Source of the DNA: Phycisphaerales bacterium
Lineage (GTDB): Bacteria > Planctomycetota > Phycisphaerae > UBA1845
NCBI GenBank assembly: GCA_013140575.1
Contig: JABFSN010000150.1
Span: 1-53,022 of the forward strand
Direction: 5' to 3'
Length of the DNA stretch: 53,022 bases
Positions within the stretch are counted from its first letter, which is position 1. Each line of letters begins with the position of its first letter. Shown here in pieces: positions 686-5,956 of this stretch. The position numbers and the translations under genes were made by a program. A model generated the notes under the pieces. The model had not been told where the DNA came from and searched no databases. It worked only from the letters and a program-made list of their open reading frames with translations.

Positions 686-1069
686 ATGTCGCGCCATTCG
701 AGGATTCGGCTGACGGACGAGCAAACCGACGAGTTGGACACTTTTCGAATGCGGGCCAGGACGCCGGCCACGTACCGCAATGCCACCATCATCCTGATGT
801 CCGACGCGGGCCGCAGCAAAGCGTCGATTGCCGAGGCCCTGGGCTGCGGCACGGCCACGGTCGAGCGCGTGCGCCGGCTGTATTCGACGATGGGCATCGT
901 CGGGCTGACACCGATCAAGCCGCCTGGCCGACCTTCGCGACTGAGCAACGCCTTGCGCGAACCGGTGTTGCAGGCCATCCAAGTCGACCCGCGTACCCTG
1001 ATACCGGTTCCGATGTTAGTCACAGACGGGCGCGGCGGTCCTGCGGGACCGGGGCCCGCTCGGCTGTGA
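686..1069 (+). pseudogene. IS630-type transposase, N-terminal fragment
   Basis: The first about 110 residues look like the N-terminal helix-turn-helix DNA-binding part of IS630 family transposases: a basic start, a helix-turn-helix around SKASIAEALGCGTATVERVRR, then the linker with the GRPSRL motif. The start has a GGGAGG ribosome binding site a few bases upstream. The DDE catalytic domain that should follow (about 200 more residues) is absent. After about residue 108 the frame continues only into unrelated sequence and stops, so the gene is broken near 1015-1020, just where the structured leader of the IS110 element begins. I infer a truncated, non-functional element, probably interrupted by IS110 insertion or by a deletion at that junction. 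Confidence 0.7.
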
Positions 1070-1353
1070 GTAACTCGGCGGCGGCTGTGATATCTTCGGA
1101 GGGTTCCGTTTTGGCGGCGGAGGTAGAATGCCGCAAGGATCGCAACGCCCCGGCATCGACACGGTCACGCAGCCCTGCTCCTGCGAGGAGCGAGCCCAGA
1201 TCACCGGTCGGGTCGGCGGCGCCTGCCCTAACGTCTGAGAGGGTGAAGGCGACCGCGGAGGGAGCCTGAACGCCTCACGAAGGCTCCTGTATCAGGTTGA
1301 CGCGTGGCAGGCCTTTGGCGTTGGAGCGGTCCTTTTTAGGGAGGACGCCAAAG
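1021..1353 (+). ncRNA. Candidate IS110 bridge RNA / structured leader
   Basis: IS110-group elements are known to encode a bridge RNA upstream of the transposase that pairs with donor and target DNA. This 333-nt stretch has no gene but four clear hairpins. The first is nested at 1021-1068 (CACAG/CTGTG, GGGC/GCCC, CGGTCC/GGACCG round a TGCG loop). The others are GCTCCT/AGGAGC at 1177-1191, GGAGCCT/AGGCTCC at 1261-1287, and CTTTGGCGT/ACGCCAAAG at 1313-1353. Position, length and folding fit a bridge RNA, but the guide loops cannot be assigned without the element ends. Confidence 0.5.
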
Positions 1354-2616
1354 ATGGGGAACGAGAATGCCGCGCGTTGGAGCGAACGGATCGCGTTCGC
1401 GGGATTCGATTGGGCCGGCGATCATCACGACGTGGTGGTGGTGGATGTCGGCGGGACCGTGGTCGAGGATTTCCGCATCGACGACAGTGCCGCGGGCTGG
1501 CAGCAATTGCGGAAGCGCCTGTCGGCGTATGCGGATCTGGCCGTCGCCGTCGAAACACGCAGCGGGGTGGTGGTCGAGCGTCTGCTGGAGGCGGGATATG
1601 CGGTGTTCCCGGTGAACCCCATGGCGGCCAAGCGTTATCGGGAGCGCAAGGCGCCCAGCGGGCACAAGACGGATCGGGTGGATGCCTGGAGCATGGCCGA
1701 CGCGTTGCGGACCGACGGTCACGCGTGGCGAGCGTTGCGACCGGACGATCCGCTGACCGTGGAGTTGCGGGTTTTGTGTCGCGACGAGGTGGCGCTCATC
1801 GGGCAACGGACGGCGTTGGTCCACCAGCTTCAGGCGGCCTTGCGGGAGTATTATCCCGTGGCGTTGCGGGCCTTCGAGGATTGGACGATGCGTTCGTCGT
1901 GGGCATTTGTGGAGCGCTTCCCCACGCCGGCTGCGTTGATCCAGTCCGGCAAGCGTCGCTGGGAGAAGTTCCTGCACACGCAGAAGCTTTATCGTCCCGA
2001 GACCTATGCCGAGCGTTTGCGTTTGTTCGCGACGGCCGAGGAGTTCTGCGGAAGCGTCGCGTTGATCCAGGCCAAGAGTCTGCTGGCGACGGGACTGGCC
2101 ATTCAACTGCGGACTCTTCAGGACCATCTGGATCGCTACCGGGCGCGGATCGAGGAATTGTTCGCACGCCACCCGGATCATGATCTGTTCGGTTCATTGC
2201 CCGGCGTGGGGCCGAAGCTGGGGCCGCGCCTGCTGTCGGAACTGGGTGATGATCGCGGGCGCTTCGATTCCGCCGAGGGACTGCAGTGCTACGTGGGAAC
2301 AGCCCCGGTCACCCATCAGAGCGGCAAGATGCGGACGGCGCGGTTCCGGCGAGGCTGCAACCCGCGGCTGCGTCATGCGGTTCACCTGTGGGCCGGTCAA
2401 AGCCTGCGGGTCTGCGCGTGGGCCCAAGTGTATTACGAGAAAAAGCGTTCGGAAGGCAAGAGCTACGCCTGTGCCTTGCGTTGCCTGGCCCAGCGCTGGC
2501 TGAAGATTCTATGGAAAATGTGGCAGACCCGGACGCGTTATGACGCCGAGCGCCACCACCGCAACCAAGTGCGTCACGGCGGTTGGGTTCTGGCCCTGAG
2601 GCCTGTGAAATCCTGA
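1354..2616 (+). CDS. IS110-family transposase (420 aa)
   Basis: This is a recombinase that moves IS110 elements through an RNA-guided, serine-assisted mechanism. The N-terminal RuvC-like domain shows the DEDD acidic set: Asp19 (FAGFDWAG), Glu67 (AVAVET), Asp107 and Asp110 (HKTDRVDA). A coiled middle part follows. The C-terminal Tnp20 domain (from about residue 285) has the helix-hairpin-helix-like LFGSLPGVGPKLG and then APVTHQSGKM, whose Ser323 is the probable catalytic serine. The length is typical and the gene looks intact. I chose the ATG at 1354 because AGGGAGG lies at 1338-1344; an in-frame codon at 1297 would start inside the leader hairpin. The ribosome binding site lies in the hairpin 1313-1353, so translation may be repressed by RNA folding. 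Confidence 0.93.
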   Translation: MGNENAARWSERIAFAGFDWAGDHHDVVVVDVGGTVVEDFRIDDSAAGWQQLRKRLSAYADLAVAVETRSGVVVERLLEAGYAVFPVNPMAAKRYRERKAPSGHKTDRVDAWSMADALRTDGHAWRALRPDDPLTVELRVLCRDEVALIGQRTALVHQLQAALREYYPVALRAFEDWTMRSSWAFVERFPTPAALIQSGKRRWEKFLHTQKLYRPETYAERLRLFATAEEFCGSVALIQAKSLLATGLAIQLRTLQDHLDRYRARIEELFARHPDHDLFGSLPGVGPKLGPRLLSELGDDRGRFDSAEGLQCYVGTAPVTHQSGKMRTARFRRGCNPRLRHAVHLWAGQSLRVCAWAQVYYEKKRSEGKSYACALRCLAQRWLKILWKMWQTRTRYDAERHHRNQVRHGGWVLALRPVKS

Positions 2617-2741
2617 CGGAGAATCGCGAACCCGCTCGGCCCCCCAAACCCGGGCAAAAGGGGGACGACAATTTCGGAGAGGCGCCATGAAAATCCCAAA
2701 AAAGCGATTGCAAACCCAGAGAACATCTGGGCTGGAGGACG

Positions 2742-2893: not shown

Positions 2894-5800
2894 ATGCCGA
2901 ACGCAAAAGATTCCACTCCGCGCCATTACCCCGGCGTCATGGTCTCCAGCACGTTCACTGACCTGGAGCAACACCGGGCGGCGCTGATCAAAGCCATACG
3001 AGGCCAGGGGCTTGCCGATGTCGCCATGGAAAACGACTCGGCAAAACCGGATGTCGATGTGATCGATTCCTCTCTTCAAATGGTCCGCGACGCGTCGGCC
3101 TACATCGGCGTCATCAGCTTCAAATACGGTCAGACGCCGCAATGCCCCAACCGCAATCCCCGCGGGCTATCCATCACCGAACTTGAGTTCAATGAGGCCC
3201 AGCTACTCAATCGGCCTATTCTGCTTTTCATTATGGGAGAGAAACATTACGTCCTCCCGGCGGACGTCGAATCGGACCCGGCCAAAAAAGATAAGCTGAA
3301 CGCGTTTCGCGAGCGAGCCAAGCAGTTGAAGCCGGATTCGCCGGTGCATCGCGTGTATTGCACATTCCACAGCCTCGAGGAATTCGCCCGCCAGGCCACC
3401 CAATCGGTCGCCGACCTTCGCCGTCATCTCGATGAAAAGACCGCTGCCTCCATCACGCCGCCAATCCCAGTTCCGACTCCGCCGTACACCACGGCCGAGC
3501 CCGACCCCATCCCCACACCGCCCGCGTTCTACGCCGAGCCGCGTTACATCGGGTCGCACCGGTTTGTTGGCCGTCAGGCCCAGCTCGACGTGCTGGACGA
3601 TTGGGCCGTGCCGGCCGACCCGCACCCCGTGCTCCTGTTCGAGGCCATCGGCGGCGCGGGCAAAAGCATGCTCACCTGGGAATGGACCACCACACACGCC
3701 GCCGGGGTCCGTGGGGACTGGGCGGGGCGCTTCTGGTATTCCTTCTACGAACGCGGCGCGATCATGGCCGACTTCTGCGGCCGGGCGCTCGCCTACATCA
3801 CCGGCAAGCAGTTCGATGATTTCCGCAGGAAGAAGACTCCTGTACTCGCCGAACAACTCCTGCACCACCTTCAGGCCCGCCCCTGGCTGCTCGTTCTCGA
3901 CGGCCTCGAGCGCGTGCTCGTCCACTACCATCGATTCGACGCCGCGTCGCTTCCCGACGAGGCCGCCGACCGGCCCACCGACCAGATCGCCCACCGCGAC
4001 CCTTGCGCCGCCATCCGCCCCGAGGACGACGACCTGCTCCGCGCCCTCGCCGCGGCCGCCCCGTCGAAACTGCTCATCACCTCGCGGCTGGTTCCCCGCG
4101 TGCTGCTCAATGCGGCGAGCCAGCCCATCCCCGGCGTTCTCCGCGTGTCCCTCCCCGGCCTGCGTCCGAGCGACGCCGAAGCGCTGCTCCGCTCCTGCGG
4201 CGTGATCGGCGGCTCGCAGGCCATTCAGGATTACCTCAAGAGCCATTGCGACTGCCACCCGTTGGTTACCGGCGTCCTGGCCGGGCTGGTCAACGACTAT
4301 CTTCCCGACCGAGGGAATTTCGACGCCTGGGCGGCCGATTCCGCGGGCGGCGGCCGGCTCAACCTCGCCGACCTCGACTTGGTCCAGAAGCGCAACCACA
4401 TCCTCCAGGCCGCGCTCGACGCCCTTCCGGAGAAGAGCCGCCAACTCCTTTCCACGCTGGCGCTCCTGTCCGAGGCCGTGGATTACCCCACGCTCAGCGC
4501 CCTCAATCCCCACCTGCCCACTCCGCAGGAACTGTCAACAACCGTTCGTGATATCGAGCGCCGGGGCCTGCTGCAATACGACGGTCAGCACAAGCGCTAC
4601 GACCTGCATCCCGTCGTCCGCGGAATAGCCGCCGGGGGCTTACGACCCGAGGAAATAGACCGCTACGGCCAGCGCGTAGTGGATCACTTCTCCCGACAGC
4701 CCCACGGTCCCTACGAGCAGGCGGAGACTCTCGAAGACCTCCGCAACGCCCTACAGGTTGTTCGCACCCTGCTCAACATGGGACGATACCAGCGGGCCTG
4801 CGATGCTTACACGGGTGACATGGCCAGCGCCCTCCTTGCGAATTTGGAGGCATACCCGGAGACTTTGTCTTTGCTGCGGCCTTTCTTCCCTCGAGGCTGG
4901 GCCTCCCTACCCAATAGTGTGGATAAAAGAGCCCGCTCCAATCTGGCACACAATGTCGCCGTGGCTTTGAGTTTCAGTGACGAGCCGCAGAAAGCCCTTG
5001 CTGCCCACGGTGCATCCCTACTCACCGACTTGGGAGCGGCGGATTGGGCAGGCGTCGTAGCAAAATTGACTGGCATTTCGATGACGCTCTCCACTCAGAA
5101 CCGCTTGGCGAGCGCGGAACGCTGCCTGCTTCTGGCCCTTGACCTTGCCGGTTTGACGGACGACGAAGGCCATCTCTTCCGTGCCCTGCTGGATCGCTTT
5201 CGGCAACTTGTCCATATTGGCCAATGGGTAGATGCCGAGGCTTTGTGGCAGTTACTCGACCCTATGGGCCGCGAATGGTCTCGCGACATCTACCGTCCCG
5301 GCTACGCAGAGTATGGCCACGCCCTGTTCCGGTTCTGGCAGGGGCAATTGAAGGAAGAGGATCTCGCCCATGCTGAACAACTGGCCAAGAAAGGCAAGAA
5401 CCGCGGTGCCATCCGCTACCTCCACGGTCTTCGCGGGCTATGGCAGCTTGAGCAAGGCCAGTGGGCGATCGCCGCAGAGAGTCTCCACGAGGCCGTGCGT
5501 ATGGCCCGCGCCGTCGGGAAGATCGACACCGCGGCGGAGACCCAACTCGCACTCGCCAGGTTCCGCCTTGGTCAGCTCTCCGACCCCCGGCGCGAGGCGG
5601 AGCAACTCGCCAATGCAAGGCGGCCGGCCCACCGCGCTCTCGCGGAGCTGTGGTTGGCCATCGGCGACCGGGTGCAGGCGAAGCAGCACGCCCTCGCGGC
5701 CTACACGTGGGCCTGGGCCGACGGCAAGCCTTACGTTCACCGTTACGAACTGAACAAGGCCACCGCCCTGTTGAAGCAACTCGGCGTGGAGATTCCCAAC

Positions 5801-5956
5801 CTGCCGCCCTACGACCCGGCCAGGGACGAAAAGTTCCCCTGGGAGGACGAAGTGGCCGCCGCCATCGAAAAACTCCGCGGCGAGAAGGAAGAGGAAAAGC
5901 GCAAGGAAGAGCCCGAAAAAAGCAAGAGGGAATCCGGGAATCGCGAGAAGGGGTAG
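2894..5956 (+). CDS. DUF4062 - STAND NTPase - TPR protein (1020 aa)
   Basis: This is a large signalling NTPase of the STAND class, an NLR-like architecture. Residues 1-185 form a DUF4062 domain (starts GVMVSSTFTDLEQHR; contains ASAYIGVISFKYG and ITELEFNEA), a Rossmann-like module often placed before sensor NTPases. A Pro-rich linker follows. The NB-ARC/NACHT-type ATPase spans about residues 220-500, with Walker A GGAGKS (253-258), Walker B WLLVLDGLER (Asp336) and a sensor-like LLITSR. A winged-helix part comes next, then TPR-like helical repeats (about 600-960) and a charged Glu/Lys tail. Such proteins sense a trigger through the repeats and oligomerise. Many bacterial STANDs act in phage defence, so defence is plausible but not shown. 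The gene stands alone next to insertion sequences. No effector nuclease is visible; DUF4062 may be the effector. The ATG start has only a weak AGGA upstream. Confidence 0.85.
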   Translation: MPNAKDSTPRHYPGVMVSSTFTDLEQHRAALIKAIRGQGLADVAMENDSAKPDVDVIDSSLQMVRDASAYIGVISFKYGQTPQCPNRNPRGLSITELEFNEAQLLNRPILLFIMGEKHYVLPADVESDPAKKDKLNAFRERAKQLKPDSPVHRVYCTFHSLEEFARQATQSVADLRRHLDEKTAASITPPIPVPTPPYTTAEPDPIPTPPAFYAEPRYIGSHRFVGRQAQLDVLDDWAVPADPHPVLLFEAIGGAGKSMLTWEWTTTHAAGVRGDWAGRFWYSFYERGAIMADFCGRALAYITGKQFDDFRRKKTPVLAEQLLHHLQARPWLLVLDGLERVLVHYHRFDAASLPDEAADRPTDQIAHRDPCAAIRPEDDDLLRALAAAAPSKLLITSRLVPRVLLNAASQPIPGVLRVSLPGLRPSDAEALLRSCGVIGGSQAIQDYLKSHCDCHPLVTGVLAGLVNDYLPDRGNFDAWAADSAGGGRLNLADLDLVQKRNHILQAALDALPEKSRQLLSTLALLSEAVDYPTLSALNPHLPTPQELSTTVRDIERRGLLQYDGQHKRYDLHPVVRGIAAGGLRPEEIDRYGQRVVDHFSRQPHGPYEQAETLEDLRNALQVVRTLLNMGRYQRACDAYTGDMASALLANLEAYPETLSLLRPFFPRGWASLPNSVDKRARSNLAHNVAVALSFSDEPQKALAAHGASLLTDLGAADWAGVVAKLTGISMTLSTQNRLASAERCLLLALDLAGLTDDEGHLFRALLDRFRQLVHIGQWVDAEALWQLLDPMGREWSRDIYRPGYAEYGHALFRFWQGQLKEEDLAHAEQLAKKGKNRGAIRYLHGLRGLWQLEQGQWAIAAESLHEAVRMARAVGKIDTAAETQLALARFRLGQLSDPRREAEQLANARRPAHRALAELWLAIGDRVQAKQHALAAYTWAWADGKPYVHRYELNKATALLKQLGVEIPNLPPYDPARDEKFPWEDEVAAAIEKLRGEKEEEKRKEEPEKSKRESGNREKG

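Follow-up and report, generated by a model that had tools for sequence, protein, structure and literature searches.

A predicted bridge-RNA gene in the left end of an IS110-group element from a Phycisphaerales bacterium

The window analysed here, a stretch of 53,022 nucleotides from a Phycisphaerales bacterium, contains what sequence comparison identifies as an IS110-group element with both of its ends (Table 1). The element comprises a noncoding left end (LE), a recombinase gene and a noncoding right end (RE), and is bounded by CT cores at 998-999 and 2727-2728. An earlier sequence-only reading had described the transposase as intact. Its frame does run from the ATG at 1354 to the stop at 2616, and the residues D19, E67, D107, D110 and S323 are all present at the positions claimed for them. 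The protein matches the Pfam domains DEDD_Tnp_IS110 (PF01548) and Transposase_20 (PF02371), and the two domains with their D, E, D, D and Ser residues place it in the IS110 family of DEDD recombinases. It scores 191 bits with the NCBIfam IS110 equivalog, whose cut-off is 140, and resembles two transposases whose structures have been solved, those of IS621 (E 3.2e-13) and ISCro4 (E 1.6e-12). Residues 271-391 of protein P0001 also show a sub-threshold match to a TIGR-Tas endonuclease model (37.3 bits, cut-off 100), which presumably reflects a shared C-terminal domain. Beyond the element, a 1020-aa protein is encoded at 2894-5956 on the forward strand, with an N-terminal DUF4062 domain and, by eye, a GGAGKS P-loop-like stretch; PADLOC gave no match for this protein.

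The stretch before the transposase had been described as free of genes. It has no gene of its own, but two mechanical frames overlap it: the frame of a broken IS630-type transposase continues from upstream to 1069, and a second open reading frame (619-1269) crosses the stretch. The hairpins reported at 1021-1353 are real, but the noncoding left end begins at the core CT at 998 and not at 1021. The three-layer nested hairpin described at 1021-1068 is actually one long helix, formed by 1015-1029 with 1060-1074.

Table 1. Features of the element and of its predicted bridge RNA, in window coordinates.
Feature	Positions	Strand	Remarks
5' fragment of an IS630-type transposase gene, forming the left target flank	686..997	+	Pfam HTH matches; NCBIfam IS630 at 38.6 bits, short of the cut-off of 100
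Whole IS110-group element	998..2728	+	1729 bp plus the second CT core copy; termini conserved in relatives, flanks join in the IS630-type frame
Left noncoding end (LE), encoding the predicted bridge RNA	998..1353	+	356 nt
5' stem-loop	1015..1074	+	arms 1015-1029 and 1060-1074; 12 pairs, 11 with two-sided changes
Target-binding stem-loop	1146..1221	+	outer arms 1146-1156/1210-1221, closing arms 1162-1165/1203-1206, inner hairpin 1178-1190
Left target guide with core	1167..1176	+	window's own left flank matched at chance level only, best 5 of 9
Right target guide AGCCCAG	1193..1199	+	reverse complement of the right flank CTGGGCT; 7 of 8 over the scored stretch, 7 of 7 over guide and core
Donor-binding stem-loop	1224..1309	+	outer arms 1224-1227/1306-1309, closing arms 1232-1235/1299-1302, inner hairpin 1272-1284
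GAGAG, 5' remnant of the left donor guide	1237..1241	+	GAGAGAAC in most relatives; matches RE at 6 of 10 positions
Dispersed hairpin unit of 29 nt within the donor loop	1243..1271	+	absent from the 19 other aligned left ends
Right donor guide GTATCAG	1289..1295	+	reverse complement of the LE start CTGATAC
IS110 recombinase	1354..2616	+	420 aa from ATG; intact frame, GGGAGGA ribosome-binding-like sequence upstream
Right noncoding end (RE)	2617..2728	+	112 nt, core included
TTGCAA, which may serve as a -35 box across the circle junction	2708..2713	+	putative
Right terminus AGAGAACAT with core CT, the left donor half-site	2718..2728	+	alignment of relatives

A scan of a genome collection revealed 31 loci with relatives of the recombinase, at protein identities of up to 83% in the best segment. 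Most of them (28) belong to Planctomycetota or Verrucomicrobia lineages, one to a Chloroflexi bin and two to unclassified bacteria. Alignment of the DNA upstream and downstream of these relatives made two conserved termini visible. Element ends were placed by motif in 19 elements, namely 17 of the 31 loci, in which both ends were identifiable, together with L035 and the window; the remaining loci were left out because they were cut by contig ends, truncated or, as in L060, had an unrecognisable left end. The left flank before the core is as short as 6 nt in L054 and 11 nt in L057. The left end opens with CTGATAC in 13 of the 19 elements, and AGAGAAC adjoins the right core in 16. A CT core occurs at both ends in 18 of them, L059 having CT on the left and CC on the right, and short cores of this kind are those of scarless insertion. 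The ends of the 19 elements include the stretch before the transposase. In the window element, the left end (356 nt) is longer than the right end (112 nt) and carries the predicted RNA, as is the case in the IS110 group. In the right end of 15 of the 19 elements, a TTG precedes the core by 18-21 nt, in 10 of them by exactly 19 nt.

The window element sits in the 5' part of the IS630-type transposase gene, whose reading frame is preserved when the flanks are joined at one CT. The joining extends an HTH_32 match from residues 58-103 to 58-120, a weak sign that stays below the cut-off. A search of the same genome with the IS630-type fragment found only the fragment itself. Two others were detected among 51 genomes of the family (E up to 1e-15), and both end before the insertion point; an empty site free of the element was not seen. 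Further copies of the window element were searched in its own genome, an assembly of 268 contigs, and only two matches of 31-34 bp were found besides the element itself. Joining the target flanks of L055 and L058 produces the small inverted repeat CACGC-TTTA-GCGTG, which recalls the palindromic REP targets mentioned for IS110 elements in PMC11208160.

Comparison among relatives shows that a structured RNA, with two internal loops, is encoded in the left end. The consensus fold of 20 aligned left ends consists of a 5' stem-loop followed by two stem-loops with large internal loops, and comprises 42 base pairs. Pairing is retained in 90.0% of the cells, compared with 71.1% in shuffled alignments; two-sided changes are found in 35 of the 42 pairs (21.5 in shuffles), and the covariation score reaches 0.527 (0.193 in shuffles). 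None of 500 shuffles attained the observed value on any of five structure measures. When the partners were slid by 1-3 columns, pairing fell to 32-51% and the score to 0.06-0.14, a comparison in which the structure has an advantage over its slid versions, as it came from the same alignment. The hairpins therefore covary among relatives. They had also been called stable: their pairing is conserved above chance, but folding stability alone is within chance, since the minimum free energy of 1008-1315 has a z of -1.24 and 9 of 100 shuffles reach an equally good fold. With such an unremarkable folding energy, hairpins judged by eye are insufficient, and the bridge-RNA claim is based on conserved covariation and not on hairpin stability.

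A covariance model of the two loops, with 147 positions, was searched in 20 chosen sources. The match in the window (1145-1315, 124.8 bits) belongs to a training sequence. Outside the training set, matches were obtained in L050 (94.5 bits), L104 (87), L105 (76), L067 (38.5) and L040 (32.3), as well as in the partial or damaged copies L012/L107 (38.6 bits), which is one stretch with a run of N, and L106 (29 bits). L030 and a second place in the window gave E values of only 0.91 and 0.24. A strict-filter search of 294 genomes of the phylum returned two, the genome of the window and G228 (103.1 bits). The model found nothing in L060, L038 and the truncated L064, where a related transposase is present, nor in the left-end pieces L010, L011, L015, L017, L027, L028 and L029. 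All of these pieces except L017 were noted as 5' hairpin pieces of the left end, and L010, L011, L027 and L028 lie near contig ends. Rfam gave no match at the gathering score over the whole window, nor at E up to 5 over 900-2900.

The sequences of the internal loops were compared with the targets and donors of 18 elements with both ends known. L058, which nearly duplicates L055, was omitted, and in L047 and L057 the loop segments were chosen manually ahead of the permutation. As read from these alignments, the left guide of the first loop runs in the sense of the target sequence that precedes the CT core, and the right guide is complementary to the core and the target sequence after it. The left target score was taken as the best ungapped match between the 5' side of the first loop and the last 9 nt of left flank with the core, and the right target score compared the 3' side of that loop with the first 8 nt of core and right flank. 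Left target guides matched their own target at a mean of 7.22 of 9 positions, against 4.70 for the targets of other elements, and right target guides at 6.94 of 8, against 4.35. On neither side did any of 20,000 permutations equal the observed sum. The left guide matches at all 9 positions in L035, L044 and L055, and is weak (5 of 9) in the window and in L046. The right target guide of 7 nt, core included, is exact in 13 of the 18 elements. Among elements outside the 18-element test, the left guide matches at 8 of 9 positions in L025, at 6 of 9 in L104 and at the chance level of 5 of 9 in L136, whose right guide matches at 6 of 8.

The second loop shows a corresponding arrangement for the donor, its left guide having, in the aligned elements, the same sense as the right terminus and its right guide being complementary to the left terminus. 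The right donor guide is complementary to the first 7 nt of LE at all 7 positions in 17 of the 18 elements, and it follows four variant termini through their substitutions: CTAATAC/GTATTAG in L053, CTGTTAC/GTAACAG in L055, CTGGTAT/ATACCAG in L052 and CTGATAT/ATATCAG in L061. In L059 (6 of 7), one base has been lost from both partners (CTATAC/GTATAG). The left donor guide repeats the right terminus at 7-10 of 10 positions in 17 of the 18 elements, the window being the exception with 6 of 10. Pairing of the internal loops with the junctions, which the sequence-only reading had proposed as a check, is found across the 18 elements, including that of the second loop with RE-core-LE.

We are therefore highly confident in reading the stretch, from sequence, as the gene for the bridge RNA of an IS110-group element. 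The candidate bridge RNA proposed before the transposase is supported by covariation and guide matching in relatives, and the observation is confirmed with corrected ends. By analogy with IS621, the DEDD/Ser recombinase would bind the predicted bridge RNA and excise a circle, and the RE-CT-LE junction of this circle would recombine with a matching LT-CT-RT target without leaving a scar. Transcription of the bridge RNA might then proceed across the circle junction.

The window copy has a particular donor loop, in which GAGAG is followed by one more G, the 29-nt unit and the inner-hairpin sequence. Because the unit splits the left donor guide after GAGAG, the window RNA would be poor at recognising its own donor, and the copy is probably poorly able to serve it. 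In addition, the inner hairpin of the donor loop is absent from the minimum-energy fold of the window sequence, where the guide-remnant bases 1239-1242 pair with 1273-1276 and displace the consensus hairpin. With an interrupted left donor guide and a left target guide that matches no better than chance, the window copy may not drive its own movement; the suggestion that RNA and transposase could form an active pair is not supported for this copy. An intact relative could still supply recombinase and RNA to move the unchanged ends of the copy, which has perhaps been moved in trans.

The window copy could accordingly be a degenerate relic of an ancestral bridge RNA, dead through the 29-nt insert and the drift of its left target guide, a reading that we consider evenly poised between right and wrong. 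The split donor guide, the chance-level target guide and the displaced inner hairpin are in line with it, and so is the genome of the window, with no second copy beyond the two short matches. The same insert was found twice in G026, a genome of another genus, and both copies are defective. In the first, the left end is missing its start, and no transposase lies nearby. In the second (L106/L069), the contig begins inside the donor loop, and a transposase without about residues 85-388 is followed by the right end; this is possibly an internally deleted, non-autonomous copy. Against a dead copy stand the intact transposase frame and catalytic residues, both ends and both right guides, as well as the presence of the same insert at three places in two genera, which fits movement after insertion. 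A relic would not conflict with the bridge-RNA gene as the main explanation, an explanation about the nature of the stretch. That the insert is more than damage seems to us doubtful, if conceivable: it would imply either a bridge RNA that functions with a rebuilt donor loop, in which the short GAGAG left guide stands beside a structured arm, or an element moved only in trans by intact relatives. In G027, three left-end pieces (L139, L142 and L145), matched over 172-240 bp and 95-96% like the first, break on their 3' side at a CT joined directly to GGGCT..., which when read by eye resembles a target right flank. The recombinase itself perhaps produced these pieces, by deleting the DNA from an internal CT to the right core of the element.

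The 29-nt unit follows the pattern N-TGA-NN-GCGACC-NNNNN-GGGAGC-N'N'-GAA-N'. Its stem pairs covary, and it has two tandem G-A/A-G mismatch steps. Among the 58 contexts gathered, a few of them from tandem arrays or counted twice, the outermost pair is complementary in 86%, and both inner N pairs are complementary in 49 (AG/CT in 31, AC/GT in 9, GG/CC in 7 and AT/AT in 2). With up to 2 mismatches and a slightly narrower pattern, the unit was detected in 34 of 114 genomes of the order, and a reversed control pattern in none. The genome of the window contains it 15 times, the window copy counted, and the control 0 times. Like the REP elements described in PMC3733652, the unit is a short dispersed hairpin; unlike the two super-families described there, it has no terminal GTAG or CGTC tag, and the mismatch steps are a further difference. 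A RAYT nearby would be expected of tagged REPs, and in the genome of the window no unit was found around six of the eight Y1/RAYT-type matches. An assignment to the GTAG- or CGTC-tagged REPs was rejected on account of the missing tag and of these six matches. A Y1 match occurs in 109 of the 114 genomes, so that its presence is uninformative about a link with the unit.

Other readings of the stretch before the transposase fare worse. The hairpins might form a cis-acting leader or attenuator of transposase expression without any guide RNA; they sit directly upstream of the gene, and earlier studies cited by Durrant et al. (PMC11208160) suggest that noncoding ends regulate recombinase expression. 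A leader, however, would have no reason to copy the host DNA flanking each insertion, as the loops do on both sides, and the loops also track the left terminus of the element through its substitutions. We regard a leader in place of a guide RNA as very improbable; the hairpins may have a regulatory role in addition to the guide function. Chance hairpins in GC-rich DNA, which the folding energy by itself would allow, are excluded by the two-sided changes and by the poor pairing of the slid controls, and deserve next to no credence. Equally negligible is an element of the IS1111 group, which is characterised by subterminal inverted repeats of 7-17 bp and a guide RNA in the right end: such repeats of 8-11 bp exist in some relatives (11 bp in L046, 9 in L051, 8 in L055 and 8 in L052), but the window has none beyond chance (6 of 11), its right end is the short one, and the reading was rejected with the guides located in the left end. 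The repeats of the relatives lie at an offset of about 15 in LE and about 35 from the end in RE, a trait ascribed to IS1111. An element's own pairs exceed shuffled pairs, 14 of 20,000 being as high, with offsets chosen after seeing the data.

The predicted bridge RNA, found in planctomycete and verrucomicrobial elements, adds a family that Rfam does not list, and a search of the open-licence literature found no paper combining IS110, bridge RNA and Planctomycet. Its natural right target guides lie at the long end of the known range, and the 19 element-target pairs with located ends can serve at once as a test set. How much of the donor guide can be dispensed with is a question for which the interrupted copy offers a natural experiment, and the interrupted donor loop, together with the dispersed unit that interrupts it, should be of interest to specialists.

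The noncoding region guides target choice likewise in ISEc21 and in the IS1111-type elements with seekRNAs (PMC11187229). The upstream position of the predicted window RNA is that of the IS110 type; unlike the seekRNAs as described there, both loops are predicted here in one RNA. The ISCro4 transposase (structure 9t56) is a distant relative of the window recombinase (E 1.6e-12), with similarity in two stretches, one per domain. Also among the closest known systems is IS621 of Escherichia coli, with a 177-nt bridge RNA and a 191-bp LE (PMC11208160). The window element resembles it, as far as IS621 is described in that source, in a predicted RNA encoded in LE, in the order of 5' stem-loop, target loop and donor loop, in the strand rules of the four guides, in the CT core, in a left target guide of about 9 nt and in a recombinase with DEDD and Ser domains. 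The left end is longer (356 nt against 191 nt), and the span from the 5' stem-loop to the donor stem measures 295 nt, compared with about 177 nt for the IS621 RNA. According to the same source, the right guide of IS621 has four bases and was extended to 7 by design, the family range is four to seven, and pairing covers 8-14 nt in six diverse elements surveyed. The right target guide of 7 nt with the core, seen here in 13 of 18 elements, is thus at the top of the reported range. Unlike the donor loop described for IS621, that of the window copy carries a 29-nt insert.
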